Of a stretch of DNA of 46,700 nucleotides, positions 11,470 to 24,599 are shown in pieces. The DNA is from Peptostreptococcaceae bacterium. GTDB taxonomy: Bacteria; Bacillota; Clostridia; Peptostreptococcales; BM714. The notes under the pieces are model-generated. The model was not told the origin of the DNA and ran no database searches. It was given only the letters and a program-made list of their open reading frames with translations. A program made the position numbers and the translations under genes. The stretch spans positions 1 through 46,700 of the forward strand of contig JAENWJ010000010.1 in the NCBI GenBank assembly GCA_016649995.1, read 5' to 3'. Position 1 is the first letter of the stretch; each line of letters begins with the position of its first letter.

Positions 11470-11495
11470 AAAAAAAAGAGCCTTTCGGCTCTTTT
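11470..11495 (-). terminator. Terminator of the parvulin gene
   Basis: Read leftward, AAAAGAGCC and GGCTCTTTT pair around a GAAA tetraloop, followed by a run of nine or more T. It begins within the stop codon of the parvulin gene. Confidence 0.88.
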
Positions 11496-12237
11496 AGTAA
11501 ATTTCCACTTCATACTGTTTTTTCAACTCACTTATCTTTTCCATGTATACATCCCTTTGCTTTTCAGCTACGAGCCTTTGGCCAATTTCATTCTTTACCT
11601 CGTCGTAGGCTCTTACGGATGGCTCCTGCTTTTCTTCAACCTTGATGATATGGTATCCGAACTGTGTCTTTACAGGTTGACTGATTTCGCCAACATTCAT
11701 GGCAAAGGCTGCAGCCTCAAATTCTGGGACCATTTTCCCTCTACCGAACATACCCAAATCTCCACCGTTTTCTTTTGACGGGCATTTTGAATATTTTGTT
11801 GCAGCATCTTCGAATGCAAGACCTCCACCAATTTCCGCCTGTATGCTCTTAGCCGCTTCCTCGCTATCCACAAGAATATGTTTGGTACGTATGCTCTCCG
11901 GCATTTGAAAGTTGCTTTTATTTTTTTCATAGTACTCTTCAGCATCATTTTCTTCGACAGCAACGTTTGCAATTGTTTTGTTTACGACATACTGCTTGAG
12001 TATGTTAACCTTTGCAGTTTCAAGTTGCGACTTGAATAATTCGTCTCCATCCATTCCGCTTGCCATCGCATATAGATAAAAGAGCTCCTGATTTACCAAC
12101 TCATTCAAAACATATTCTCTGCCCTTTTCATTGTCGAACTGAGCGGCACGCTCCGGTCCAAGGCTCTTGATCATCATTTCCATTTCTTCTTTCAGTATTT
12201 CCCTATTTCCCACTTTTGCCAAAACATTTTTATTCAT
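11494..12237 (-). CDS. Cytoplasmic parvulin-type peptidyl-prolyl isomerase
   Basis: A 247-residue foldase. An N-terminal helical SurA/trigger-factor-like region (1-110) precedes a parvulin PPIase domain (about 115-205) with RTKHILVDSEEAA, GGDLGMFGRGKMVPEF and TQFGYHIIKVEE, followed by a short helical tail. There is no signal peptide or lipobox, unlike PrsA, so it probably acts in the cytosol. A very degenerate second copy of the 5' part of this gene and its leader lies at 16941-17239. The gene stands alone, ending at a strong terminator. Confidence 0.92.
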   Translation of the reverse strand: MNKNVLAKVGNREILKEEMEMMIKSLGPERAAQFDNEKGREYVLNELVNQELFYLYAMASGMDGDELFKSQLETAKVNILKQYVVNKTIANVAVEENDAEEYYEKNKSNFQMPESIRTKHILVDSEEAAKSIQAEIGGGLAFEDAATKYSKCPSKENGGDLGMFGRGKMVPEFEAAAFAMNVGEISQPVKTQFGYHIIKVEEKQEPSVRAYDEVKNEIGQRLVAEKQRDVYMEKISELKKQYEVEIY

Positions 12238-12362
12238 TAAATAGTCTCCTTTAAATTTAGTCTAATGCCATAGTAACAGAAAGCTTAATCCCTGTTCATG
12301 TGAACCTCCCCTTGTAAACTGCTTCGCAGCTATATCGGAGATTATAGAAGGGGATTGCGTTT

Positions 12363-13164: not shown

Positions 13165-14280
13165 CTACTTTTTGATTTCCAAAGCCTTATCTTGTTGCAT
13201 GATTTTCCAAACTCCGATTGTGCAAACCGGAACTACATAGAATGCGAAGAAGCCCCATGTTATGGTTCCGTATCCTTTAGCTATGAGACCTATCAATCCG
13301 AATTGGGCTATTCCAGCTCCAACAACGAGAAGGGCTATAGTAAGTGATGTTGTAAATTTGGTCGGCATTGTTTCGCCTTTTTCTTTGTATACTGAATTGA
13401 TACGCTCAGTAACAGCAAATATGAATCCTGTACCGGTTTCTATAAGTGTTCCGAAAAGAACTATTTGGAATGTTATTTGGAAGAAGGGCGAGCCCAATAC
13501 TCCCAAAATATGATTTGTCGGAACCGCAACTGTCAAGATTTCCGGATAGAGGCCTATCATTGCCAGGTAAAGAAGTATTCCTGGAACGATTCCGATGATT
13601 CCGGCCATGATGCCAGATCCGATTGCTTCTTTTCTTGTTTCTATATGACGAGTTGAAAAAAGAACGGCGGGGATGATTCCCAAATTGTAGAATGCATATT
13701 TAAATCCGCCCATTGCCCAGCCGGGCTTAATGTTTCCTTGGAATACAGAGTTCACGATGCCGTCGCCGTACTTAGTGAAGCAAACAACCAGGAATGCGAT
13801 GTAAACTGCATAAAGCAGGAAAGACCAGTATGAAAGGAATTTCTCGATGGTATCTGAACCGTTGAATACCAAAAGTCCTACTCCAACCATCATTCCGACA
13901 ACTCCAACATAATAATTCAATCCAAAAATTTCATTAAGTATGCTTCCTGCTGTCGATGCGATTACAGCGAGAACGATGAGAAGCAATACAAAATAACATA
14001 CTTCATAAAGCCACCATGCCTTGCCGAGCAGTTTCGTGAAGAAGCTTCTGTAGTCATACGCCTTGAATACCCTTGCAAATTCAAAGGTTACGGCACATAC
14101 TAGCGACCAAATTACTGTCGATATGCATACCATGGCGATCAGGCCGCCCAATGTTCCAAAGTTTAGAAAAAATTCTACAAGCTCACGTCCCGTTCCGTAG
14201 CCTCCTGCGATAACAACGGATTGGAAAACGATACCCGGAACAAAATATTTCTTAAATGTATCCGATTTTACAAAATTCAT
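13165..14280 (-). CDS. YkvI-like amino-acid/cation transporter-type membrane protein
   Basis: A 371-residue protein with about ten hydrophobic helices. Near its N terminus a glycine-rich unwound-helix motif, VVIAGGYGTGRELVEFF, is typical of YkvI (COG3949) proteins of the LeuT/APC fold. These are uncharacterised, but the fold and its place after two PLP enzymes suggest uptake of the amino acid they process. The ATG has AAGGAGG seven bases upstream. It is last in a leftward three-gene operon behind the sigma-54 promoter at 16834-16849, 63 bases after the class III enzyme. Confidence 0.85.
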   Translation of the reverse strand: MNFVKSDTFKKYFVPGIVFQSVVIAGGYGTGRELVEFFLNFGTLGGLIAMVCISTVIWSLVCAVTFEFARVFKAYDYRSFFTKLLGKAWWLYEVCYFVLLLIVLAVIASTAGSILNEIFGLNYYVGVVGMMVGVGLLVFNGSDTIEKFLSYWSFLLYAVYIAFLVVCFTKYGDGIVNSVFQGNIKPGWAMGGFKYAFYNLGIIPAVLFSTRHIETRKEAIGSGIMAGIIGIVPGILLYLAMIGLYPEILTVAVPTNHILGVLGSPFFQITFQIVLFGTLIETGTGFIFAVTERINSVYKEKGETMPTKFTTSLTIALLVVGAGIAQFGLIGLIAKGYGTITWGFFAFYVVPVCTIGVWKIMQQDKALEIKK

Positions 14281-14343: not shown

Positions 14344-15696
14344 CTACCACCCCTTTGCAGTTTTGAGTACCTCGTCGGGAATATCCCCGGCCAAGAACTC
14401 TTTCATTGATTCCTCTATGATATCAATTGCCTTATCTATCTCTTCACGGGTAATTACGAGAGGCGGTTGGAATCTTAGTACGCCGTCTCCCAAGAAAATT
14501 ATGATTACCCCTTTTTCCCAACATCTGTAGCAAATTTTAGCCGCCGCTTCTCTGTAGCCTTCCTTGGAAATTCTGTCTCTTACCAAGTCCACACCTATGG
14601 AAAGTCCCAAGCCCCTTACATCGCCTATGATTTCATACTCTTCCATCAACGCTTCGAAGCGCCCCTTGGCGTAATTGCCAAGTTCGGTACTCTTTTCCAA
14701 AAGATTCTCGTCTTTTATTACCTCGAGCGTCGCATATGCCGCCGCGCAAGCCAATGCATTCCCGCTCATTGTAAAGAGATGCGCGGGAGCATCCATAGAA
14801 TCCATTATTTCTTTTCTAGCTACTATAGCGCTTAGTGGAACCCCTGAACCAATGGATTTGCCTAGAATCAGCATATCGGGAACCACATCGAAATGTTCTA
14901 TTCCAAACCATTTCCCAGTGCGGCCAAAGCCTTGCTGCACTTCCTCGCTCACGAAAAGTATTCCATTCTCACTGCATAGTTCATACAAGGCTTTCATATA
15001 GCGATTGGGCGGAACGATAAGTCCACCGTCTCCCTGTATTGGTTCTATTATAACGGCCGCTATTTCTTCAGGCGGCATGAAAGTTTTCATGGCTTTCTTG
15101 AAAGCGCCCAGGCACTCCAAATCGCAGGTTTCGCATTTCTTGCCATATAGGCATCTGTAACAATCGGGGTATTCGATGTGCTCTATTTCCCCCAAAAGCG
15201 GTCCTATCTTTCTTCGCATGTTAAGGCTTATTGCGCTTAGGGACAATGCTCCGTAAGTAGATCCGTGATACGCTCCTATGAATGAAACTATTTTCTTTCT
15301 TCCGGTGTAAGCCCTTGCAAGCTTTATTGCTCCGTCATTTGCGTCGGAACCGCTATTGCCAAATGCAACTTTTTTTTCATAGTCCCCTGGCGTAACCTCT
15401 ATAAGGGCCTCTGCGTATTTAACAAGGGGCTCTGAATACATATAGGCCGCCGTATATGTTATGTATTTTTCCGCTTGTTCTTTTATCGCTTTTACTATTC
15501 TCGGATGCGCATGCCCAGTATTAAGAGCAGATGCACTCGACAACAAATCTATGAATTCGTTTCCGTCAAAGTCTTCTAGTATAGCTCCATGGCCCCTTGC
15601 AACAGCCAAAGGATAATATGGCATCCTAGCAAACTCCGGATATACCTTAGCATCCCTGTCTATGATTTCTTGCGTTTTAGTCAATTTAAAACTCAT
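14344..15696 (-). CDS. Class III PLP enzyme, isoleucine 2-epimerase/GABA-aminotransferase-like
   Basis: A 450-residue fold-type I PLP enzyme. The PLP lysine is K280 in ILGKSIGSGVPLSA, with SFIGAYHGSTYGALSLS and the phosphate-binding SGSDAND upstream. The segment order resembles Lactobacillus isoleucine 2-epimerase: LNMRRKIGP, IIEPIQGDGG, LRFQPPLVI and a C-terminal KGW. An amino-acid racemase/epimerase or omega-aminotransferase activity is therefore most likely. Residues 179-195 hold five cysteines (CYRC...CETC...C), a dense cluster that could bind metal. GGAGG precedes the start. It lies between a HisC-like aminotransferase and a transporter, suggesting catabolism of one amino acid, perhaps a branched-chain or D-form one. 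Confidence 0.9.
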   Translation of the reverse strand: MSFKLTKTQEIIDRDAKVYPEFARMPYYPLAVARGHGAILEDFDGNEFIDLLSSASALNTGHAHPRIVKAIKEQAEKYITYTAAYMYSEPLVKYAEALIEVTPGDYEKKVAFGNSGSDANDGAIKLARAYTGRKKIVSFIGAYHGSTYGALSLSAISLNMRRKIGPLLGEIEHIEYPDCYRCLYGKKCETCDLECLGAFKKAMKTFMPPEEIAAVIIEPIQGDGGLIVPPNRYMKALYELCSENGILFVSEEVQQGFGRTGKWFGIEHFDVVPDMLILGKSIGSGVPLSAIVARKEIMDSMDAPAHLFTMSGNALACAAAYATLEVIKDENLLEKSTELGNYAKGRFEALMEEYEIIGDVRGLGLSIGVDLVRDRISKEGYREAAAKICYRCWEKGVIIIFLGDGVLRFQPPLVITREEIDKAIDIIEESMKEFLAGDIPDEVLKTAKGW

Positions 15697-15711: not shown

Positions 15712-16800
15712 CTATTTTTTCTCGAGCTGCTCGATTCTTTCGACAAGAACATCCACATCCGCGTTGATTCTGAGACGAACACAGTTTTTGCCCAAACCCT
15801 CGAAATTGCATCCCGGAACAGACAATACCTGAACTTTAAGCAACTCACTATATAAATCGACTTTCTTGTCTTCATGAACCATAGTCATTATCGGAACCGT
15901 AAGACTCGTCTCGAGAACTCCAATCGTCTTCATCGATTCAATGACTTTTTTCTTTGCAACGGCGATTTTCTCTCTGCTCTCTTCCAAAAACCCTTCCTCT
16001 TTCAAAGCCTCTTGAGCAAAAACCGCCCCCATTCCGCTTACGCAAAATGGAATAGCAACTTTTCTGTAGACGTCCATGAGTTCCACCGGTCCTACAGCGT
16101 ATCCAACCCTCATACCTGCCATTCCAAATCCCTTCGAAAAAGATTTTACCACCATTATGTTGTCGTACCTTTCCATAAGATTGATAGCGGAATTCTTTTT
16201 TTCCATGAAATCTCCATAGGCTTCGTCTACAAGAACACAAACCCCGAGCTTGGCTGCTTTCTCTACAATCTTTGAGATGGTCTCAATGGGAATTATTTGT
16301 CCCGTCGGATTATTGGGATTGTCTATATAGCAAATGGCATGTCTGCTTTCAATTGCGTTTATGAGCCTTTGGCCGTTGAACCTTCCATTGTTTCCGAACA
16401 TGTCCACCGTTTCATATATGCCTCCCATAGCCTCCACATCCATCCCAAAATCAGGAAACTGTGGGCCATGGCCTATGACCGCCGTTCCCTTGTCAATAAA
16501 CATCTTGTTGATTTTTGTCAGTGAATCCATGGACCCGCAAGCCAATTCGATTTGCCCCATATCAATGGATGCACAATCCTTCCAATAATCCATGATTGCG
16601 TTTTTCAATTTCGAATCGCCGTGAGGATATTGGCTTATCAAATCGAGGTTCATCATCCTTGCAGCTTCATTGATTGCCTTCGGAAATCCGTATGGATTAA
16701 TACCTAAAGAGCAATCTATGCCGTCGGCGGCGAAATCCTCGGGTACATTTGCATAACTTTCATGCTTTATTTTTTCTAAATGTTTTCTAATGTGATACAT
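15712..16800 (-). CDS. Class I/II aminotransferase, histidinol-phosphate-aminotransferase-like
   Basis: A 362-residue PLP aminotransferase. Motifs are LGINPYGFP, a YIDNPNNPTGQ substrate/PLP segment, VDEAYGDF and the PLP lysine in SFSKGFGMAGMRVGYAVG, all typical of the HisC/CobD subgroup. It is not near any histidine or cobalamin biosynthesis genes. Its operon partners (an epimerase-like PLP enzyme and a transporter) and its sigma-54 promoter point to inducible amino-acid catabolism instead of biosynthesis. It is the first gene of the operon; GGAGGGG lies six bases before the ATG and the predicted transcript start is only about 24 bases upstream. Confidence 0.9.
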   Translation of the reverse strand: MYHIRKHLEKIKHESYANVPEDFAADGIDCSLGINPYGFPKAINEAARMMNLDLISQYPHGDSKLKNAIMDYWKDCASIDMGQIELACGSMDSLTKINKMFIDKGTAVIGHGPQFPDFGMDVEAMGGIYETVDMFGNNGRFNGQRLINAIESRHAICYIDNPNNPTGQIIPIETISKIVEKAAKLGVCVLVDEAYGDFMEKKNSAINLMERYDNIMVVKSFSKGFGMAGMRVGYAVGPVELMDVYRKVAIPFCVSGMGAVFAQEALKEEGFLEESREKIAVAKKKVIESMKTIGVLETSLTVPIMTMVHEDKKVDLYSELLKVQVLSVPGCNFEGLGKNCVRLRINADVDVLVERIEQLEKK

Positions 16801-16833
16801 CTATACCCCTCCATTCTTTCACTCCTTAATACA

Positions 16834-16849
16834 CGCAAATACCGTGCCA
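16834..16849 (-). promoter_or_regulatory. Sigma-54 (-24/-12) promoter of the aminotransferase operon
   Basis: Leftward, TGGCACGGTATTTGCG matches the consensus TGGCACG-N4-TTGC exactly, with the invariant GG and GC ten bases apart. The predicted transcription start (about 16824) gives a 24-base leader containing the ribosome site. The same promoter block recurs, slightly diverged, at 21725-21741 beside a sigma-54 activator gene. Confidence 0.82.
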
Positions 16850-16940
16850 TTTTTAGCGCCACAGACAACGTTTTCGCCAAGGCTAGTCAATCAGCTATTT
16901 CAATCTTTATATCATTTACCTTTATTTCTTTATCTACAAT

Positions 16941-17239
16941 AATATGTTTGGCGCGGACGCTTTCCGGTATTTGGAAATCGTCTTGTTTGCTGCATACTAC
17001 TTGAGTATGTTGCCCTTTACAGTTTCAAGTTACGACTTAAAATCTCTTCCCTATCCATTCTGTTTGACATCGAATATAGATAAATGAGCTGATTAATCAG
17101 CTCATTTAAAGCATACTCTCTTCCTTTATCGCTATTGAACTGGGCATCACGCTCCGGTCCAAAGCTCTTGAACATCGTTCCCATTTCTTCTTTACAGTAT
17201 TACCCTATTTTACACTTTTGCCAAAACATTTTCGTTTAT
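16941..17239 (-). pseudogene. Degenerate copy of the parvulin gene 5' part
   Basis: This stretch aligns through its length with the first part of the parvulin gene at 11494-12237 and, further right to about 17300, with its leader. Shared blocks include GGACCGGAGCGTG, CAATTC-type variants of the following codons and TTTATCTATAT. The start codon is ATA instead of ATG, codon 10 is a stop (GGA to TAA), further stops and indels follow, and about 60 bases around the middle are deleted. The PPIase domain is absent. It is a dead partial duplication lying directly upstream of the sigma-54 promoter. Confidence 0.9.
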
Positions 17240-17299
17240 TAATTAGTCTTCTAAAATTTTAGTATGATGTTAGAATAACAGAAATCTTAATCCCTGTCT

Positions 17300-17656
17300 A
17301 GTAAATAATCCGAATTCTCTAAATATATTACGCTAGAACCTCCAACAACCATACAGTTCACTCATCCACATACCTCAAAGCGAGCGTGGAACCAACGAGC
17401 GCCATAACGATTTGATTAGACACTTTATACCTAAGGGAAAACATATGAACTAATACTCTATAGCAACAATTCCCCATATTCAAACTTGGTGCAATACGCT
17501 GCTTCGAAAGATTCTCAGATATAAGATTTCTGATGAAGCTTTCGAAGACCAGCTCAGAATATTACTTTACAGCTGAGATTAATTGATATTACAGAAAGAC
17601 TAGTTCAACTTGTTGTTGCAATTTAGGTAAAAATAATACTCTTTTTAGATAACATA
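17300..17656. other. Non-coding stretch without recognisable features
   Basis: No open frame of useful length, no strong terminator and no recognisable insertion-sequence end was found. It is the junction between the parvulin pseudogene and the AT-rich D-aminoacylase module. A short rightward open stretch near 17510-17577 may be debris of a lost gene but is not identifiable. Confidence 0.5.
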
Positions 17657-19255
17657 TTAAATTCTTCTTAAAACTTTTCCTTCAGTTTTTCCTGTATACG
17701 ATCCATTGTCTATTATAATTTCCCCATTAATGAATACATAGTTTATTCCTATAGGGTCTTTAAATGGGTCTTTAAAATCAGCACCATCAATAATTGTATC
17801 AGGATCAAATATTACAAGATCAGCATCCATGCCCACCTTGATCAAGCCTTTTCCTTGAAGATTAAATCTTGTTGCTGTAAAACCTGTCATTTTATTAACA
17901 GCTTCTTCTAATCTCAATGTTTTCTCTTCCCTTACATATTTCCCAAGAACTCTTGGGAAAGTACCACTCGAACGCGGATGACATTTAGCACCTGGCGCAG
18001 CTGCAATAGAATCTGAACCTATCATAGTGTATGGCCTTTGCATTACATACTTAACATCATCCTCGGCTAGCATGAAATAACACGCAGCATCAATTCCCTT
18101 ATTAGCTATAATTATATCAAGTAGTGCTTCCAGTGGGTCTATTCCTAACATTTTACCAACTTGGGCAAGGGTCTTACCTTCATATTCAGAGGTTTCAGGT
18201 GTATAAGAAATCAGTACTCCTTCAGCACCATTACACTCCTTAATAAAATTCTCCCATTCATCATTTGTATTAATCTCTTCTATTATTCGTTTTCTTGTAT
18301 CTAAATCTTTTAATCTTTCAATAATTTTATCTACTCCACCTTCATGCACCCAAGGTGGAAGGCAAGCTCTTAGTGTAGTACTACCAGCAGTATATGGATA
18401 TTGATCAATTGTAACATCAATCCCCCTATCTCTGGCATCCTCCACTAACTTAATAGTTTCCTTCACAATTCCCCAATTTTTTATCCCCACAGCTTTGTGG
18501 TGATGAACTTGTACTGCTATGCCAGCTACTTCTGCAACTTTAATAAGCTCTTTAACTGAATTAACCGAATCATATGATTCATTTCGCATATGCGAAAGAT
18601 AAACTCCGTTAAATTCTTTTAAAGCTTTAGCAACTTCCTCTATCTCTTCTGGTTGTGAATATATACCAGGAGGATAAATCAATCCAGAAGAAAGGCCAAA
18701 TGCACCATCTTTCATCGCTTCTTCTAGTTGATCATGCATCTCTTTAATTTCTTGCTTTGTAGGAAGTTTTGAATCAAACCCCATCACATTTATTCTTATT
18801 GTCCCTTGCCCAACAAATGCACCAATATTAGTACCAAGATCTAAATCATCAATTACATTTAAATACTCCCCAAACCTTTCCCAATTATATTCAGGGTTTG
18901 CCCCACCCTTAAAAGCTCCTACATATTTATCCAGAAGTTCTACCTTGTCTGGACTTATTGGTGCTGGAGATATCCCACAACATCCAATCATTTGAGTCGT
19001 TATACCTTGTTTTAACTTAGATAGCATCCCAGGATCTCTTAAAAGCACAAAATCGGAATGTGTATGACAGTCAATGAAACCAGGTGATAAAACCTGCTTC
19101 TTTGCATCAATTGTTTCACCGGAGTAGGCATCTTCGGATAATTTGCCCACATATGCGATTTTTCCATCCTTTAGACCAACATCACCCAAATACCACGGAT
19201 TACCTGATCCGTCTACTATCTTTGCATTTTTTATTAACAAATCAAAGTTATACAT
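17657..19255 (-). CDS. N-acyl-D-amino-acid deacylase (D-aminoacylase)
   Basis: A 532-residue amidohydrolase that should remove the acyl group from N-acyl-D-amino acids, giving the free D-amino acid. The metal pair is in FIDCHTHSDF (H64, H66), followed by the cysteine of IGCCGISPAP (family NCG position), SHMRNE, VQVHHHKAVG, the QYPYTAGSTTL segment and a late GSDS(I/A)AA region. The size is as expected and there is no signal peptide. GGAGG lies six bases before the ATG. It ends a leftward operon with a Na+ symporter and a DUF997 protein. The base composition is visibly more AT-rich than the flanking genes, suggesting acquisition from elsewhere. Confidence 0.92.
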   Translation of the reverse strand: MYNFDLLIKNAKIVDGSGNPWYLGDVGLKDGKIAYVGKLSEDAYSGETIDAKKQVLSPGFIDCHTHSDFVLLRDPGMLSKLKQGITTQMIGCCGISPAPISPDKVELLDKYVGAFKGGANPEYNWERFGEYLNVIDDLDLGTNIGAFVGQGTIRINVMGFDSKLPTKQEIKEMHDQLEEAMKDGAFGLSSGLIYPPGIYSQPEEIEEVAKALKEFNGVYLSHMRNESYDSVNSVKELIKVAEVAGIAVQVHHHKAVGIKNWGIVKETIKLVEDARDRGIDVTIDQYPYTAGSTTLRACLPPWVHEGGVDKIIERLKDLDTRKRIIEEINTNDEWENFIKECNGAEGVLISYTPETSEYEGKTLAQVGKMLGIDPLEALLDIIIANKGIDAACYFMLAEDDVKYVMQRPYTMIGSDSIAAAPGAKCHPRSSGTFPRVLGKYVREEKTLRLEEAVNKMTGFTATRFNLQGKGLIKVGMDADLVIFDPDTIIDGADFKDPFKDPIGINYVFINGEIIIDNGSYTGKTEGKVLRRI

Positions 19256-19293
19256 ATAATTACCTCCAATAAAATTTTATTAGTTGACTTAAA

Positions 19294-20796
19294 TTATCTT
19301 TCTGTAATAACGCTAGGATAAGTCTTGCCAAACCATATCATAATAATTCCCTTAGGAGCCTTAGGTGTTACCTTGCTAACTAAAACAGTTAAGATTCCTG
19401 AAATTATTAGTGAAATTACAATTGCATTCATACCCATAGTTATATTTAAAAAATTCCCTGCTCCTAAAATATAAGTGACCATTCCACCTATCATGCCCGC
19501 TGCTGCCCCGTATTCATTTGTTCTTTTCCAATATACGCCTAATAACATTGGCCAAAAGAATGCTGAACCTAAACCACCTATTGCAAATGTTATTATGTAT
19601 TGCAAACTATTTGGCGGATTAATTGCTAAAGCAAATATGCAAAGAGTAATGATCGTTGTTGAAGCTATGGCTACCTTTTTCAACTTTTTGCTATCAGCCT
19701 TTGGATTAATAAATGTTTGATATGCATTTCTAACGAATGTACTACTTAATACGATAATCATTGCTCCAACTGTTGATTGTATAGCACCAGCTACACCTGC
19801 TAACGTCAATCCTGCCATCCATGGCGGTAATACTGTCATAGTTATTGCAGGAATTATTTGGTCAGCCACTGTTAATTCCGGGAACATGGCACGGCCTAAA
19901 CTCCCTACCCATATTAGTATTATTGACCACACTAACACAAATCCTCCGCCCAAAATAATTGATTGGTGCATAGATTTTGTGTCCTTATATGTTAAAGCTC
20001 CCATAGCACCATGTGGTAGGCCTATAAAAACAAGTCCATATGTAATCCACAAAGAAATTTGATAAGGAATGCTCCAACTCCATGGAGTCACTAATTTCGG
20101 ATCAATGCTAATTAGAGTTTCATATGTTTGTTGCAATGGCATAGCATACTTAATGGCCCCTACAAATAATGTTACTACAGCTACTGTCATAATAACTCCT
20201 TGAAAAGCTATAGCCGTTGCAACTCCTTTTATGCCACCCAAAGCAGCGGTTATTAATACTAATCCTGCAAAAATAACTAGTCCTAATATGTAAGGCAAAC
20301 CTGTCATCGATTCAAATAGCCTCGCACCACCTACAAATTGGGCAACATCGTAACCGCCCAAAAAAATCAAAATTGCTAAAACACCAAAAATCCCAATTAA
20401 CTTATTGTTATTATATCGAGAGCTAAATAAGTCTAAATAAGATTGTGCACCAATTCTTCTTGATACGATTCCAACCTTTTTCCCTATTTCTCCAAGAATT
20501 GCAAAATTCATAAAGCTTTGTGCTAAAATTGCTAACACCCAAGTAAGTCCAACACTCCAAGCCAATCCCGGCCCTCCAAGAAATGTACCCGCACTACATA
20601 GTCCGGCCGCTATCATCATAGCAACAACTAGTGGACCCATCGTACGATTACCCGTAAAATATTCATCCATATATTTATCATCTTTTGCTTTGTCCATTAC
20701 TTTTTTCGAGTATATACCTATAGCAATCATGAATATGGAATATATTATAAAAGTAATAATTATGGCAATTCTAGCACTTCTACCTACCTCAAACAT
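19294..20796 (-). CDS. Sodium:solute symporter, PanF-like
   Basis: A 500-residue SSS-family transporter with about 13 helices. A GLCSAGTFLGGPGLAWSVG segment sits in helix 2, GGYDVAQFVGGARLFESMTG follows, and GGIKGVATAIAFQGVIM and AGVAGAIQSTVGAMIIVLSS carry the conserved Na+/substrate helices. It is closest in style to pantothenate-permease-like members. Next to a D-aminoacylase its cargo may be an N-acyl amino acid. ATG 20796 is chosen because AGGAG lies eight bases upstream; the in-frame GTG at 20805 overlaps that site. A DUF997 partner precedes it. Same AT-rich composition as its neighbours. Confidence 0.9.
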   Translation of the reverse strand: MFEVGRSARIAIIITFIIYSIFMIAIGIYSKKVMDKAKDDKYMDEYFTGNRTMGPLVVAMMIAAGLCSAGTFLGGPGLAWSVGLTWVLAILAQSFMNFAILGEIGKKVGIVSRRIGAQSYLDLFSSRYNNNKLIGIFGVLAILIFLGGYDVAQFVGGARLFESMTGLPYILGLVIFAGLVLITAALGGIKGVATAIAFQGVIMTVAVVTLFVGAIKYAMPLQQTYETLISIDPKLVTPWSWSIPYQISLWITYGLVFIGLPHGAMGALTYKDTKSMHQSIILGGGFVLVWSIILIWVGSLGRAMFPELTVADQIIPAITMTVLPPWMAGLTLAGVAGAIQSTVGAMIIVLSSTFVRNAYQTFINPKADSKKLKKVAIASTTIITLCIFALAINPPNSLQYIITFAIGGLGSAFFWPMLLGVYWKRTNEYGAAAGMIGGMVTYILGAGNFLNITMGMNAIVISLIISGILTVLVSKVTPKAPKGIIMIWFGKTYPSVITER

Positions 20797-20848
20797 TTTT
20801 TCCACTCCTTTATTTAAATGTATTTATGATACAGTAATAATTTGTTTA

Positions 20849-21163
20849 TCACCCTTCAGTACTTTCAATTGTATCATCTAAACTCATATCTTGGAACTTG
20901 AACTTAACCACATATACAATAATTCCAAAAAAGATAAAACTTGTCACAATTGATACAAACCACCAAGTAGGCATTCCCAAAATATATGTATAATCTTTTG
21001 GATCGCCTCTTCCTAAAAAGTATCCCAAAGTTATCATTACAGTTGTGAACGCCAATTGTATACTAAAAACTAATTTCATTTCTTTTTCACAAATTACAAA
21101 TCGTGGATCAACCTCGATTTCGTCCAATTCATAATTTGTGTCATAATACTCTTCTTTTGTCAT
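20849..21163 (-). CDS. DUF997/YhdT-type small membrane protein
   Basis: A 104-residue protein with two hydrophobic helices (about residues 30-50 and 66-90) separated by a short loop containing LGMPTWWFVS. This is the layout of DUF997 (YhdT) proteins, which are routinely encoded just before PanF-type symporters and may act as a small subunit. It lies 52 bases upstream of the symporter start and is first in the operon, with AAGGAGG before the ATG. Extended acidic tails flank the helices. Function is inferred only from position and layout. Confidence 0.75.
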   Translation of the reverse strand: MTKEEYYDTNYELDEIEVDPRFVICEKEMKLVFSIQLAFTTVMITLGYFLGRGDPKDYTYILGMPTWWFVSIVTSFIFFGIIVYVVKFKFQDMSLDDTIESTEG

Positions 21164-21369
21164 TTAAGTGACCTCCTTTTAAGTTGGTTTAAAATACAAT
21201 GTTTAAAAAACTATAAATTTCACATATAATATCACCTCCCCTCTTGAATATATTATAAGGAAAGATTAAATGCGTATAATGGTGAAATTAATAAAAATGA
21301 GCCATTCAGCATCAACCTCGGGTAAAATAGAGTTGTCTATAAGCCATCAATCCGAGGAGGAAATACCAA

Positions 21370-21471
21370 ATGACTCAGATTAATACTGCCCTAGATTCCG
21401 AAATGTTGCACGGACTTTTTACATCAATCGCAAATATGAAACATTTGCCGCTTGATTGTATAATTAAATAA
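21370..21471 (+). pseudogene. IS256-family transposase N-terminal remnant
   Basis: A 33-codon frame beginning MTQINTALDSEMLHGLFTS matches the usual opening of IS256 (mutator-type) transposases (MTQxxxTLxxELLHxLFT), with GAGGAGG upstream. A stop follows within 33 codons and the catalytic domain is missing, so only the left end of the element is left. Confidence 0.72.
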
Positions 21472-21569
21472 ATGCACCCCCTTTATTGGTGCAAAATAAA
21501 AATGTGCCAGAACCCCATTACCGTGTATGATTGATTTAAGACAATAAATCTTATACGGAGATTGGGACT

Positions 21570-21698
21570 ATGGCACAAACACAGCATACCACAGTACCAA
21601 GAAGTTTCAAACATTTAAGACTAGATCAAAGAGGAATGATTGCTGCTTATCATGATCAGGGATTATCTGCCAGACAGGTTGGAGATAAAATTGCCACA
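21570..21698 (+). pseudogene. IS30-family transposase N-terminal remnant
   Basis: The first 43 codons encode the IS30 helix-turn-helix start: FKHLRLDQRGMIAAYHDQGL followed by SARQVGDKIA. After that the frame runs into unrelated sequence that carries the orphan sigma-54 promoter. All of the DDE domain is gone. The 90 bases before it, including a TGCACC/GGTGCA pairing near 21473-21497, probably include the left end of the element. Confidence 0.85.
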
Positions 21699-21724
21699 CC
21701 CCCATTCATTCATTTCTTATATAC

Positions 21725-21741
21725 AAGCAAATACCATGCCA
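21725..21741 (-). promoter_or_regulatory. Orphan sigma-54 promoter beside the activator gene
   Basis: Leftward, TGGCATGGTATTTGCTT keeps the GG and GC of the -24/-12 elements ten bases apart. About 50 bases from the -24 element through the leader match the 16800-16849 promoter block with roughly nine mismatches. What it now reads into is the IS30 remnant, not a gene. Confidence 0.7.
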
Positions 21742-22006
21742 CTTTGCATGATACGTGTTTCGTTTTTTATCTAAGCATTGCAAACACAAGGTTTCACCAG
21801 GTAAACAATTTTAATCCACCTTATAATACACTTATCGTCCCACCGCCACAATGAGCTTCATGTCACATTTTGGAGCACTATATTCGGTCTTTTTCGTTCA
21901 TTTTAGGGATGTTAAAAAACGAATCCGTCCGTATTTTCTGAAATTCCCCTCTATTTTCAACGCTTTTCATTAATACTTTTACTATTAAATTATACTTTAC
22001 AACGCA

Positions 22007-22041
22007 TGTTGCATAATGTAACATGTACCATATATGTAACA
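22007..22041. promoter_or_regulatory. Tandem imperfect palindromes upstream of the sigma-54 activator
   Basis: TGTTGCATAATGTAACA (22007-22023) is a 17-base palindrome with one mismatched pair. It is followed directly by TGTACCATATATGTAACA, a weaker palindrome with the same right half. They lie 25 bases before the activator gene and about 270 bases upstream of the orphan sigma-54 promoter, a suitable distance for an activator site or an autoregulatory operator. Confidence 0.5.
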
Positions 22042-22065
22042 CAATATAATTAAGGAGAAAATGAT

Positions 22066-23820
22066 ATGTCAAAACTTCTATGCGAAACCTTGTATGCTCT
22101 CACCCATGAATCGACTAAGCCCAAAAGTAATGGATCTTTGGATGAATTTTTCATCAACAAAATTTTCCCTTCCATTGCATCCATATACCCTCTTAAAAGC
22201 AGCGCATTGCTTTTGGTGGACAGGGAAGACAGAATATTGTCCATTGTTTCCCGTGACGCAGATTTAAAAAAATGCAATTTCGAAAACAGGATGTTTTCTT
22301 TCGCTAAGTCATCTTTAGAAAAACATAACTTCATGATAAGATACGGCAAGACAACACTATACCTTTTAAAGAATATTCCACACATGCTAAAGAAACCCAG
22401 ATACTCTCTTCTGCTCATATCAGAAAACGAGATACCCGAAGCCTTTTTTGATTTGGATCGGATATCCAAGAGTCTTGAAACCCTTGCGCTTGAAAATGAA
22501 AGGCAAAATGGGTCCTACAGGATTCTGCTAAAGTATCTCGATGCCATAGACGACGGCATATCCGCCTGCGACAAGGATGGAAATGTAACCTACATCAACT
22601 CAAGCGCCTGCAGCTTGCTTGGAGTCGACAAGAGCAAGGTCATCGGCAAAAACCTCAACCACCCCCCTTTCAAGGACACTATACTTGTACAGATACTAAA
22701 ATCAAAAAAAACGCAGATGGACTTTGAATATAATCTCAACTACAAGGGAAAACCGTCACATCTCATGAATTCTGCTTATCCCGTATTTGACAATGACGGA
22801 AATATCATGGGTGCAATAGATATTTTCAGCAGGATAAAGCGTTCGTACCAAATTGCCAGTAATATGGCAGGTCATAGGGCTATTTACGAATTCAACGACT
22901 TCATTGGCAGCGGCCTAGCTCTTCAAAACAAGATAAATCTTGCAAAGGAATTTTCAAATATAAATAAAAACACCCTTCTCGAGGGTGAAAGCGGAACAGG
23001 AAAGGAACTTTTTTCACAATCAATCCATAATTTCAGTGACAGAAAATCGGGCCCATTTGTGGCAATAAACTGCGCAAACTACCCTATAGATCTTTTTGAC
23101 AGCGAATTATTCGGTTACGATGAGGGAGCGTTTACAGGGGCCAAGAAGGGCGGAAAATCCGGTAAATTTGAATTGGCCGATGGCGGAACCCTTTTTCTCG
23201 ACGAAATAGGCGAAATGCCCATGCAGATGCAAGCAAAACTGCTAAGAGCCATCGAAACAAAGCAGGTTACTCGACTAGGCAGCAACAAGACAATAACCAC
23301 AGATGTTCGAATAATTGCAGCAACCAACAGGGATTTGGAATCCATGATCGAAAAAAAACAATTTAGGGAGGATCTCTACTACAGGCTTAAAATCCTATAT
23401 CTAAAGATCCCGCCACTCAGAGAAAGAAAAGAAGATATTAAAGAACTTTGCGAACATTTCATCGAAAAAATCAATCCGGAAATGGAGAAGCCTGTCTCCA
23501 GGCTCTCGGACGAAGCGCTTTCATTGATTCGAGCATATGACTGGCCAGGAAACATACGTCAATTGGAAAACATACTTTCAATTGCAATGTTCATGTCAGG
23601 GGGTGGCTTCCTTGAAAAAAGCCATCTTATTCAAGCCGGTCTGGAATGCACTAAAAAAACGCCTGATGAAACCAAAAGACTGGAGGATTCCAGTATGGAC
23701 CTACTCTTAAGTACCTTGGAAGAGAACGGTTACAATATAAAACAAACTTCAGAGGTTCTTGGAATATCCAGAAACACAATATATCGAAAGATGAAAAAAT
23801 ACGGCATTGTAAGAGCATAA
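22066..23820 (+). CDS. PAS-domain sigma-54-dependent transcriptional activator
   Basis: A 584-residue enhancer-binding protein. Residues 1-145 form an unrecognised N-terminal sensor region, a PAS domain covers about 155-262, the AAA+ domain about 280-515, and a Fis-type helix-turn-helix ends the protein (555-580). The core is intact: Walker A GESGTGKE (307-314), the sigma-54 contact loop GAFTGA (354-359), Walker B GTLFLDE (374-380) and DLYYRL. It should activate a -24/-12 promoter in response to a small cytosolic ligand. The likely targets are the orphan promoter beside it and the aminotransferase operon promoter about 5 kb away. AAGGAG precedes the ATG. G+C and codon use match the chromosome, not the AT-rich module. 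Confidence 0.92.
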   Translation: MSKLLCETLYALTHESTKPKSNGSLDEFFINKIFPSIASIYPLKSSALLLVDREDRILSIVSRDADLKKCNFENRMFSFAKSSLEKHNFMIRYGKTTLYLLKNIPHMLKKPRYSLLLISENEIPEAFFDLDRISKSLETLALENERQNGSYRILLKYLDAIDDGISACDKDGNVTYINSSACSLLGVDKSKVIGKNLNHPPFKDTILVQILKSKKTQMDFEYNLNYKGKPSHLMNSAYPVFDNDGNIMGAIDIFSRIKRSYQIASNMAGHRAIYEFNDFIGSGLALQNKINLAKEFSNINKNTLLEGESGTGKELFSQSIHNFSDRKSGPFVAINCANYPIDLFDSELFGYDEGAFTGAKKGGKSGKFELADGGTLFLDEIGEMPMQMQAKLLRAIETKQVTRLGSNKTITTDVRIIAATNRDLESMIEKKQFREDLYYRLKILYLKIPPLRERKEDIKELCEHFIEKINPEMEKPVSRLSDEALSLIRAYDWPGNIRQLENILSIAMFMSGGGFLEKSHLIQAGLECTKKTPDETKRLEDSSMDLLLSTLEENGYNIKQTSEVLGISRNTIYRKMKKYGIVRA

Positions 23821-23871: not shown

Positions 23872-24423
23872 TTAATACAATGAAGGAGAAAAACACGAAA
23901 TTGCAGTTGTAACTGTTTTTAATGGATTGTATATCCTGTGGCTTACATTCTCCTGTATGTAGATGCTGTCTCCCTCTTCAAGAACATACTTTTCTTCCCC
24001 GAGATATACATGAAAAGAACCATGCAAAACAAAAATGCATTCATCGACTTTGTGGGACAAGTAATCCTCATTGCTCCAGCTTTCTGCATCCATATGAATA
24101 TAGATGATTTCCATCTTGGGTCTTATCGTCTTGTTTGAGGCCATCGGAGTAACGAATTCATATATCATTGTACTGTTAGGCAACGCCAATTTTTTACGCT
24201 TTTCTGCCTTTATAAGAAAATGATCGGCATTTTCCTCTGAAAGAAAACTGTAAATCGGGGTGTCCAGCGCCAACGCGATTTTCCTAAGCGAAGAAAGTGA
24301 AGGATCAATAATGCTTCGTTCAATCTGAGAAATATAACTCGCAGTAAAATTAACCTGCTTTGCCAATTCGCTCAATGTCATACCTTTTTCCTGTCTCAGC
24401 TTTCTTATCTTTGCACCTATCAT
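23872..24423 (-). CDS. XRE-family regulator with C-terminal cupin domain
   Basis: A 183-residue transcription factor. The N-terminal Cro/CI helix-turn-helix has IRKLRQEKGMTLSELAKQ, then TASYISQIERSIIDPSLSSL. A linker and a small-molecule-binding cupin domain (about 105-180) follow, with VDECIFVLHGSFHVYLGEE and LEEGDSIYIQENVSHRIYNP. Such proteins often control amino-acid or polyamine uptake and metabolism. The leftward amino-acid ABC importer immediately to its right is a reasonable target. ATG 24423 is chosen because GGAGG stands seven bases upstream; the in-frame ATG at 24441 has no such site. Confidence 0.9.
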   Translation of the reverse strand: MIGAKIRKLRQEKGMTLSELAKQVNFTASYISQIERSIIDPSLSSLRKIALALDTPIYSFLSEENADHFLIKAEKRKKLALPNSTMIYEFVTPMASNKTIRPKMEIIYIHMDAESWSNEDYLSHKVDECIFVLHGSFHVYLGEEKYVLEEGDSIYIQENVSHRIYNPLKTVTTAISCFSPSLY

Positions 24424-24599
24424 ATACAACCTCCAATGCATTCTTTTTGCACGACTGCTTAGATAAAATAAATAAATAGTTCATGAATCCAACTCTTTTT
24501 CACTATTATTTTACCACAAGATTATTTTATTATCCACATATTTCCTAAAAATACGGGCAATTGCCCATTGATTTCTTTGTGTTTCACATCAAAATTAAA

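Follow-up and report, generated by a model that had tools for sequence, protein, structure and literature searches.

The window analysed here is a 46,700-nucleotide stretch of a Peptostreptococcaceae bacterium (contig JAENWJ010000010.1 of assembly GCA_016649995.1, positions 1 to 46,700). It carries, on its minus strand, an operon for two pyridoxal phosphate (PLP) enzymes and a transporter-like protein and, some 5 kb from it, the gene of a sigma-54 activator, with two matching blocks of sigma-54 promoter sequence, one in front of the operon (promoter 1) and the other near the activator (promoter 2). The locus is probably an eroded tandem duplication, in which one copy of the operon (copy A) was gutted and refilled with other genes; that judgement covers the whole explanation, including the present working of the locus, and the duplication history taken by itself is a slightly safer proposition. 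Judged by alignment with a congener, promoter 2 is the ancestral promoter, accompanied by enhancer-like sites and a ribosome-binding site, and promoter 1 is a truncated duplicate.

Two promoter blocks and their ancestral arrangement

Promoter 1 (TGGCACGGTATTTGCG, 16849-16834, minus strand) and promoter 2 (TGGCATGGTATTTGCT, 21741-21726, minus strand) both retain the GG of the -24 element and the GC of the -12 element within an intact TGGCAY-N5-TTGC, and are predicted on that basis to be sigma-54 promoters; TGGCATGGTATTTGCT is the sole perfect match to TGGCAYG-N4-TTGCW within the window. A sensitive blastn search of 16801-17660 against the window aligned 16805-16853 with 21696-21745 at 82% identity over about 50 bp (E 4.3e-7), and the local-alignment score of this pair, 53, is about twice the 27 of the runner-up within the window. 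Only these 50 bp or so are common to the two copies, the homology ending, at promoter 1, just upstream of the -24 element. A preliminary description of this DNA had placed matching blocks at 16834-16849 and 21705-21741, flanking a module of DUF997, symporter and D-aminoacylase genes and two transposase fragments, with the activator alongside; all of these were found.

The arrangement in relatives indicates which copy is the older. In a member of the same genus (G001), activator and operon are directly divergent across a 373-bp intergenic region with one good promoter, and the same divergent pair, with TGGCATATATATTGCT, is present in a genome of another family (G056), so that the earlier proposal of an activator once directly divergent from its operon is borne out. 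A further genome (G375) holds PuuR, the activator, both PLP enzymes and the transporter all in one orientation. The relatives compared carry one sigma-54 promoter, and none has two functional ones. Synteny with G001 continues on both sides of the disturbed stretch, which argues that the separation of activator and operon is derived in the lineage of the window. Positions 21700-22065 align with the entire G001 intergenic region, from promoter 2 through the ribosome-binding site, and the alignment ends at the expected start codon, where an IS30-like fragment begins. What remains of the lost first gene is its stranded ribosome-binding site, GAATGGGGGTGTG (21696..21710, minus strand), which aligns with AATGAATGGAGGTGTGTG-ATG of G001. 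This full-length alignment, together with the conserved spacing of the enhancer-like sites described below, argues that promoter 2 is the original, still in place.

One further relative shows a different state. G019, of another family, has the same operon (L071, 1-378), with enzymes 66-90% identical, and inspection of its operon leader revealed no recognisable -24/-12 element; sigma-54 control thus seems, from these sequences, to come and go in this group.

A parvulin pseudogene at the probable duplication joint

Bearing on mechanism is a truncated and frameshifted parvulin pseudogene, together with a copy of the parvulin promoter region (16875..17297, minus strand), which the preliminary description had missed. 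It is 80% identical to 11971-12295 and 75% identical to 11865-11936, that is, to the intact parvulin (PPIC) gene at 11494..12237 (minus strand; 82% in its G001 orthologue) and the sequence ahead of it. The parent gene lies downstream of the operon, and the pseudogene adjoins promoter 1 directly upstream, in the same orientation. At the putative joint, 16854..16880 (minus strand), parvulin codon 143 or thereabouts would be fused just upstream of promoter 1. Fusion of the middle of parvulin to the front of the promoter is the joint expected from a head-to-tail duplication of a unit running from promoter to parvulin: the downstream end of the unit is joined to its upstream end, in the same orientation and between the two copies. 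The divergence of the two pairs is also similar, at 18-20% for the promoter blocks and 21% for the parvulins.

The pseudogene has lost its start codon and has acquired frameshifts, stops and a deletion of some tens of bases. Its private changes fall evenly over first, second and third codon positions (17/15/9), as opposed to 6/4/21 and 4/5/28 in the intact genes (Fisher P 1e-4 and 3e-6), a spread which argues for neutral drift since birth. In a phylogenetic tree it branches with the intact parvulin of the window, not outside the pair of species, with ultrafast bootstrap values of 88 and 79; this supports a duplication arising after the species split, on a rooting of moderate strength. A sigma-A-like sequence, TAGACA-17-TATTCT with TG before the -10 element (17272..17300, minus strand), is a candidate promoter of the pseudogene by consensus match only (9/12). 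Also within it, at 17081-17108, is a perfect palindrome of 28 bp that the intact gene lacks (-20.8 kcal/mol with its extension, z -5.3). It has the look of a quasipalindrome whose arms were corrected to perfect symmetry, and may, by its predicted folding, act as a terminator.

The activator and its enhancer-like sites

The activator gene (22066..23820, plus strand) has an uninterrupted reading frame of 584 amino acids (aa) with a PAS domain, a Sigma54_activat AAA+ domain (E 3e-67) and a Fis-type helix-turn-helix (HTH), the combination that characterizes bacterial enhancer-binding proteins (bEBPs), and its G001 orthologue is 76% identical. The nearest curated model is PrdR; with 406 bits against a cut-off of 795 bits for NCBIfam NF041552, the protein is related to PrdR and is not PrdR by that model. 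The G001 activator gene contains one in-frame TGA (L067, about 11574), which is either genuine decay or a mistake in the draft sequence; as this stop disturbs the alignment, no dN/dS value (ratio of nonsynonymous to synonymous divergence) for the activator is used here.

Two enhancer-like sites lie between the activator and promoter 2, at distances counted here from the -24 element. Site 1, TGTTACATTATGCAACA (TGT-N11-ACA; 22007..22023, minus strand), is identical in G001 and stands 266 bp from promoter 2 (264 in G001); site 2, TGTCACATTTTGGAGCA (21861..21877, plus strand), which ends in GCA instead of ACA, is 120 bp away with the same spacing in G001. The TGT-N10-12-ACA form is reported in PMC6615313 for many clostridial activators, PrdR included, and TGTTACATTATGCAACA and TGTCACATTTTGGAGCA fit it. 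No further match with up to one mismatch occurs in the whole 1.84-Mb genome. Promoter 2 thus has a site within the usual 100-250 bp (site 2) and another just beyond it. For promoter 1 the nearest such site is 5.0 kb off: none was found near it with up to three mismatches, nor was even a loose TGT-N10-12-ACA found between 16600 and 17880.

The operon and the inserted module

The operon begins with a class I/II PLP enzyme (HisC/CobD-like; 15712..16800, minus strand; 69% identical in G001), followed by a class III PLP enzyme (14344..15696, minus strand). The closest solved relatives of the latter are an isoleucine 2-epimerase and a broad-specificity amino-acid racemase (4ysn, E 7e-145; 9wrf, E 5e-136), suggesting a fold-type I racemase of the isoleucine 2-epimerase group, with a score below the NCBIfam LeuMetRace cut-off (461 against 800). 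Next comes a membrane protein that is transporter-like, of YkvI type by inspection (13165..14280, minus strand; 95% in G001), to which no Pfam or NCBIfam model matches. All of these genes are intact, with a ratio of nonsynonymous to synonymous divergence (dN/dS) of 0.03-0.11 against G001, dS being near saturation. Their intactness and conservation imply that something probably expresses the operon.

Between operon and activator, three minus-strand genes encode a DUF997 (YhdT-like) protein (20849..21163; PF06196), a PanF-type sodium/solute symporter (19294..20805; PF00474, above the TIGR02119 cut-off) and an N-acyl-D-amino-acid deacylase (17657..19255; PDB 1m7j, E 1.5e-86), whose closest solved relatives are D-aminoacylases. 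The module has a GC content of 31-37%, against 41% for the window, and as such it is absent from G001, in whose genome its D-aminoacylase has no match; the same genes in the same order, at 47-70% identity, occur in G375 and G326, of another family. The low GC content and distant best matches favour acquisition from outside the genus over loss in G001. In G326 a single co-oriented run comprises PuuR, DUF997, symporter, two D-aminoacylases, a class III enzyme (67% identical to that of the window) and a class I/II enzyme, and a class III enzyme also stands beside a D-aminoacylase in two other genomes (G913 and G781). The co-occurrence of the module with racemase-like and PLP-enzyme genes in one run argues that the insert is related in pathway to the operon and is not random; these gene contents make it reasonable to propose a pathway in which N-acyl-D-amino acid is converted to the D- and subsequently to the L-amino acid.

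The module is bordered by debris of insertion sequences (IS). A 5' fragment of Mutator/IS256 type, representing an N-terminus (21299..21470, plus strand), is homologous to an element in a relative that matches PF00872. The adjoining IS30-like element (21471..21695, plus strand) comprises only a 5' end and a transposase N-terminus, cut at the promoter 2 leader, with an HTH_38 match in 43 aa that, at E 9e-5, lies below the Pfam cut-off. Neither fragment has a second copy anywhere in the genome, so no parent element can be named. On the other flank, 359 bp (17298-17656) separate the D-aminoacylase from the pseudogene; within them, 17595-17626 gives an isolated match of 33 bp (91%) to contig C39, outside any clear gene.

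The earlier statement that the second promoter reads only into an IS30 remnant holds insofar as the debris does adjoin it, but beyond that debris the module lies on the same strand, and promoter 2 is aimed at it from 540 bp away. Upstream of DUF997, at -267 in G375 and -325 in G326, the module carries a perfect TTGACA-17-TATAAT promoter; in the window, the DUF997 leader extends 136 bp up to the IS256-type fragment, and its best sigma-A match is 9/12. With a same-strand, pathway-related module lacking its usual sigma-A promoter downstream, the description of promoter 2 as an orphan is not established.

History of the locus and alternative explanations

The history that we favour starts from an ancestor in which the activator and an operon under sigma-54 control (promoter, class I/II and class III enzymes, transporter-like protein) would have been directly divergent, and in which a co-oriented parvulin gene would have followed the operon. 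Head-to-tail duplication would then have copied a segment that began shortly before the -24 element and ended in mid-parvulin. The resulting order would be activator, enhancer, promoter 2, copy A, truncated parvulin, promoter 1, copy B, parvulin. In copy B the genes would have survived, with a core promoter only; copy A would have kept the enhancer, promoter 2 and ribosome-binding site and lost its genes, its interior now holding the IS fragments and the DUF997-symporter-D-aminoacylase module. Sigma-54 promoters require a separate enhancer, so that genes become parted from their control when a duplication takes in no more than the core promoter. The preliminary description was right that activator and operon had been parted by about 5 kb through duplication or rearrangement; the mechanism most simply indicated here is tandem duplication, and not an insertion duplicating its target.

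In its present working, the activator bound at 21861-22023 would fire promoter 2 at the normal distance of 120 bp, and some of the transcripts may pass the debris and reach the module; transcription of the operon would start at promoter 1, 5.0 kb away from the enhancer, at the sigma-A-like promoter of the pseudogene, or at both. That promoter 2 drives the module is a guess, to which we give somewhat less than even weight. It is unlikely that a single bEBP enhancer serves two sigma-54 promoters, driving the module from promoter 2 at 120 bp and the racemase operon from promoter 1 at 5.0 kb; if it did, one signal would co-regulate the two halves of an N-acyl-D-amino-acid pathway, over an enhancer distance greater than the 3 kb that the review PMC7408454 reports for native sites.

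Several points weigh against this explanation. The interior of copy A is gone: searches of 17290-21700 by blastn and tblastn for leftovers of the class I/II and class III enzymes, the transporter and a 194-aa protein found none, and we infer their loss after duplication. As no interior survives, the full extent of the duplication is deduced from its two ends. The rooting that places the pseudogene within the window's lineage is only moderately supported. The 28-bp palindrome, at -20.8 kcal/mol, could halt read-through from the pseudogene promoter, and a weak hairpin resembling a terminator (-8.4 kcal/mol, z -1) stands between promoter 2 and the module.

The alternative that survives best concerns the present working of the locus and is compatible with a history of duplication. 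Promoter 2 could be a dead orphan that fires into debris and terminates, leaving module and operon on sigma-A promoters and the activator with no useful target. The weak hairpin near 21497-21470 (minus strand), whose tail is rich in T, and the module leader, which has a TATAAT with a poor -35 element, both suit such a state; the in-frame TGA in the G001 activator and the G019 leader lacking -24/-12 elements suggest, moreover, that sigma-54 control may be dispensable here. Set against this, the enhancer sites, their spacing and promoter 2 are intact, and the 584-aa activator frame is uninterrupted, retention which may nevertheless merely reflect recent change. We regard this account of the present state as rather doubtful, while taking it seriously.

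A second alternative dispenses with tandem duplication: an IS-driven insertion alone would have landed the module between promoter and operon, and the 50-bp promoter duplication and the parvulin fragment would be separate events. It draws on the two IS fragments that border the module and on the absence of any surviving interior of a duplicated operon, but it demands two independent duplications whose products came to lie side by side and co-oriented, with similar divergence and in the order that tandem duplication predicts, and insertion copies a few target bases, not 50 bp together with a distant gene. We consider it improbable. An assembly artefact joining unrelated stretches, conceivable in an assembly of 103 contigs, is barely credible, given that both flanks are syntenic with G001 and that the junction sequences are single-copy save for the parvulin pair, leaving no repeat for a false join.

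Relation to known systems

Tandem duplication interpreted as promoter capture has a laboratory precedent in the Cit+ variants of the Escherichia coli long-term evolution experiment, where an rnk-citG tandem duplication captures a promoter (rnk-citT; PMC5918244), and further cases in his operon fusions (cited in PMC11111574). As in those systems, a head-to-tail duplication here would have placed a truncated upstream gene, promoter included, ahead of a second operon copy, the parvulin promoter being, by its 9/12 consensus match alone, the candidate for the one captured. In contrast to them, this is an old event in nature, after which copy A was emptied and refilled, and the fused copy also had a core sigma-54 promoter.

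Compared with the clostridial sigma-54 regulons described in PMC6615313, the locus shares TGT-N11-ACA sites at 100-250 bp, a TGGCAT-N5-TTGCT promoter and, in relatives, a divergent activator; it differs from those with a bEBP beside its targets in that the operon genes lie 5 kb from the sites. The main text of that paper includes neither the regulon of this activator nor an aminotransferase target. For action at a distance, the review PMC7408454 puts native bEBP sites as far as 3 kb upstream and mentions an NtrC system weakly activated from 6 kb. Control of a promoter by one enhancer kilobases off is possible in principle; unlike those cases, the predicted promoter 1 is 5.0 kb off with a competing promoter in between. 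We found no literature pairing tandem duplication with sigma-54 control, or D-aminoacylase with racemase operons.

The locus is perhaps best viewed as a natural regulatory rewiring whose pieces can still be read, with enhancer and promoter on one side, operon and core promoter on the other, and related genes between. Its parts are of known kinds; what is unusual, and testable, is that enhancer and genes have been parted and a related module stands between them. It poses two questions: over what distance a native bEBP enhancer can act with a competing promoter on the way, and whether a promoter already in place can be taken over by an operon inserted behind it.

Two observations concern the neighbourhood of the rearranged stretch. 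Between the transporter and the gene of the 194-aa protein, G001 carries DUF2157 and GDYXXLXY genes (L067, 16841-18458), both absent from the window. On the other side, a PuuR-like XRE-cupin regulator (23872-24441) adjoins the activator; homologues stand at the front of the D-aminoacylase cluster in G326 and near the activator in G375, a gene context that suggests a possible role in the same pathway.

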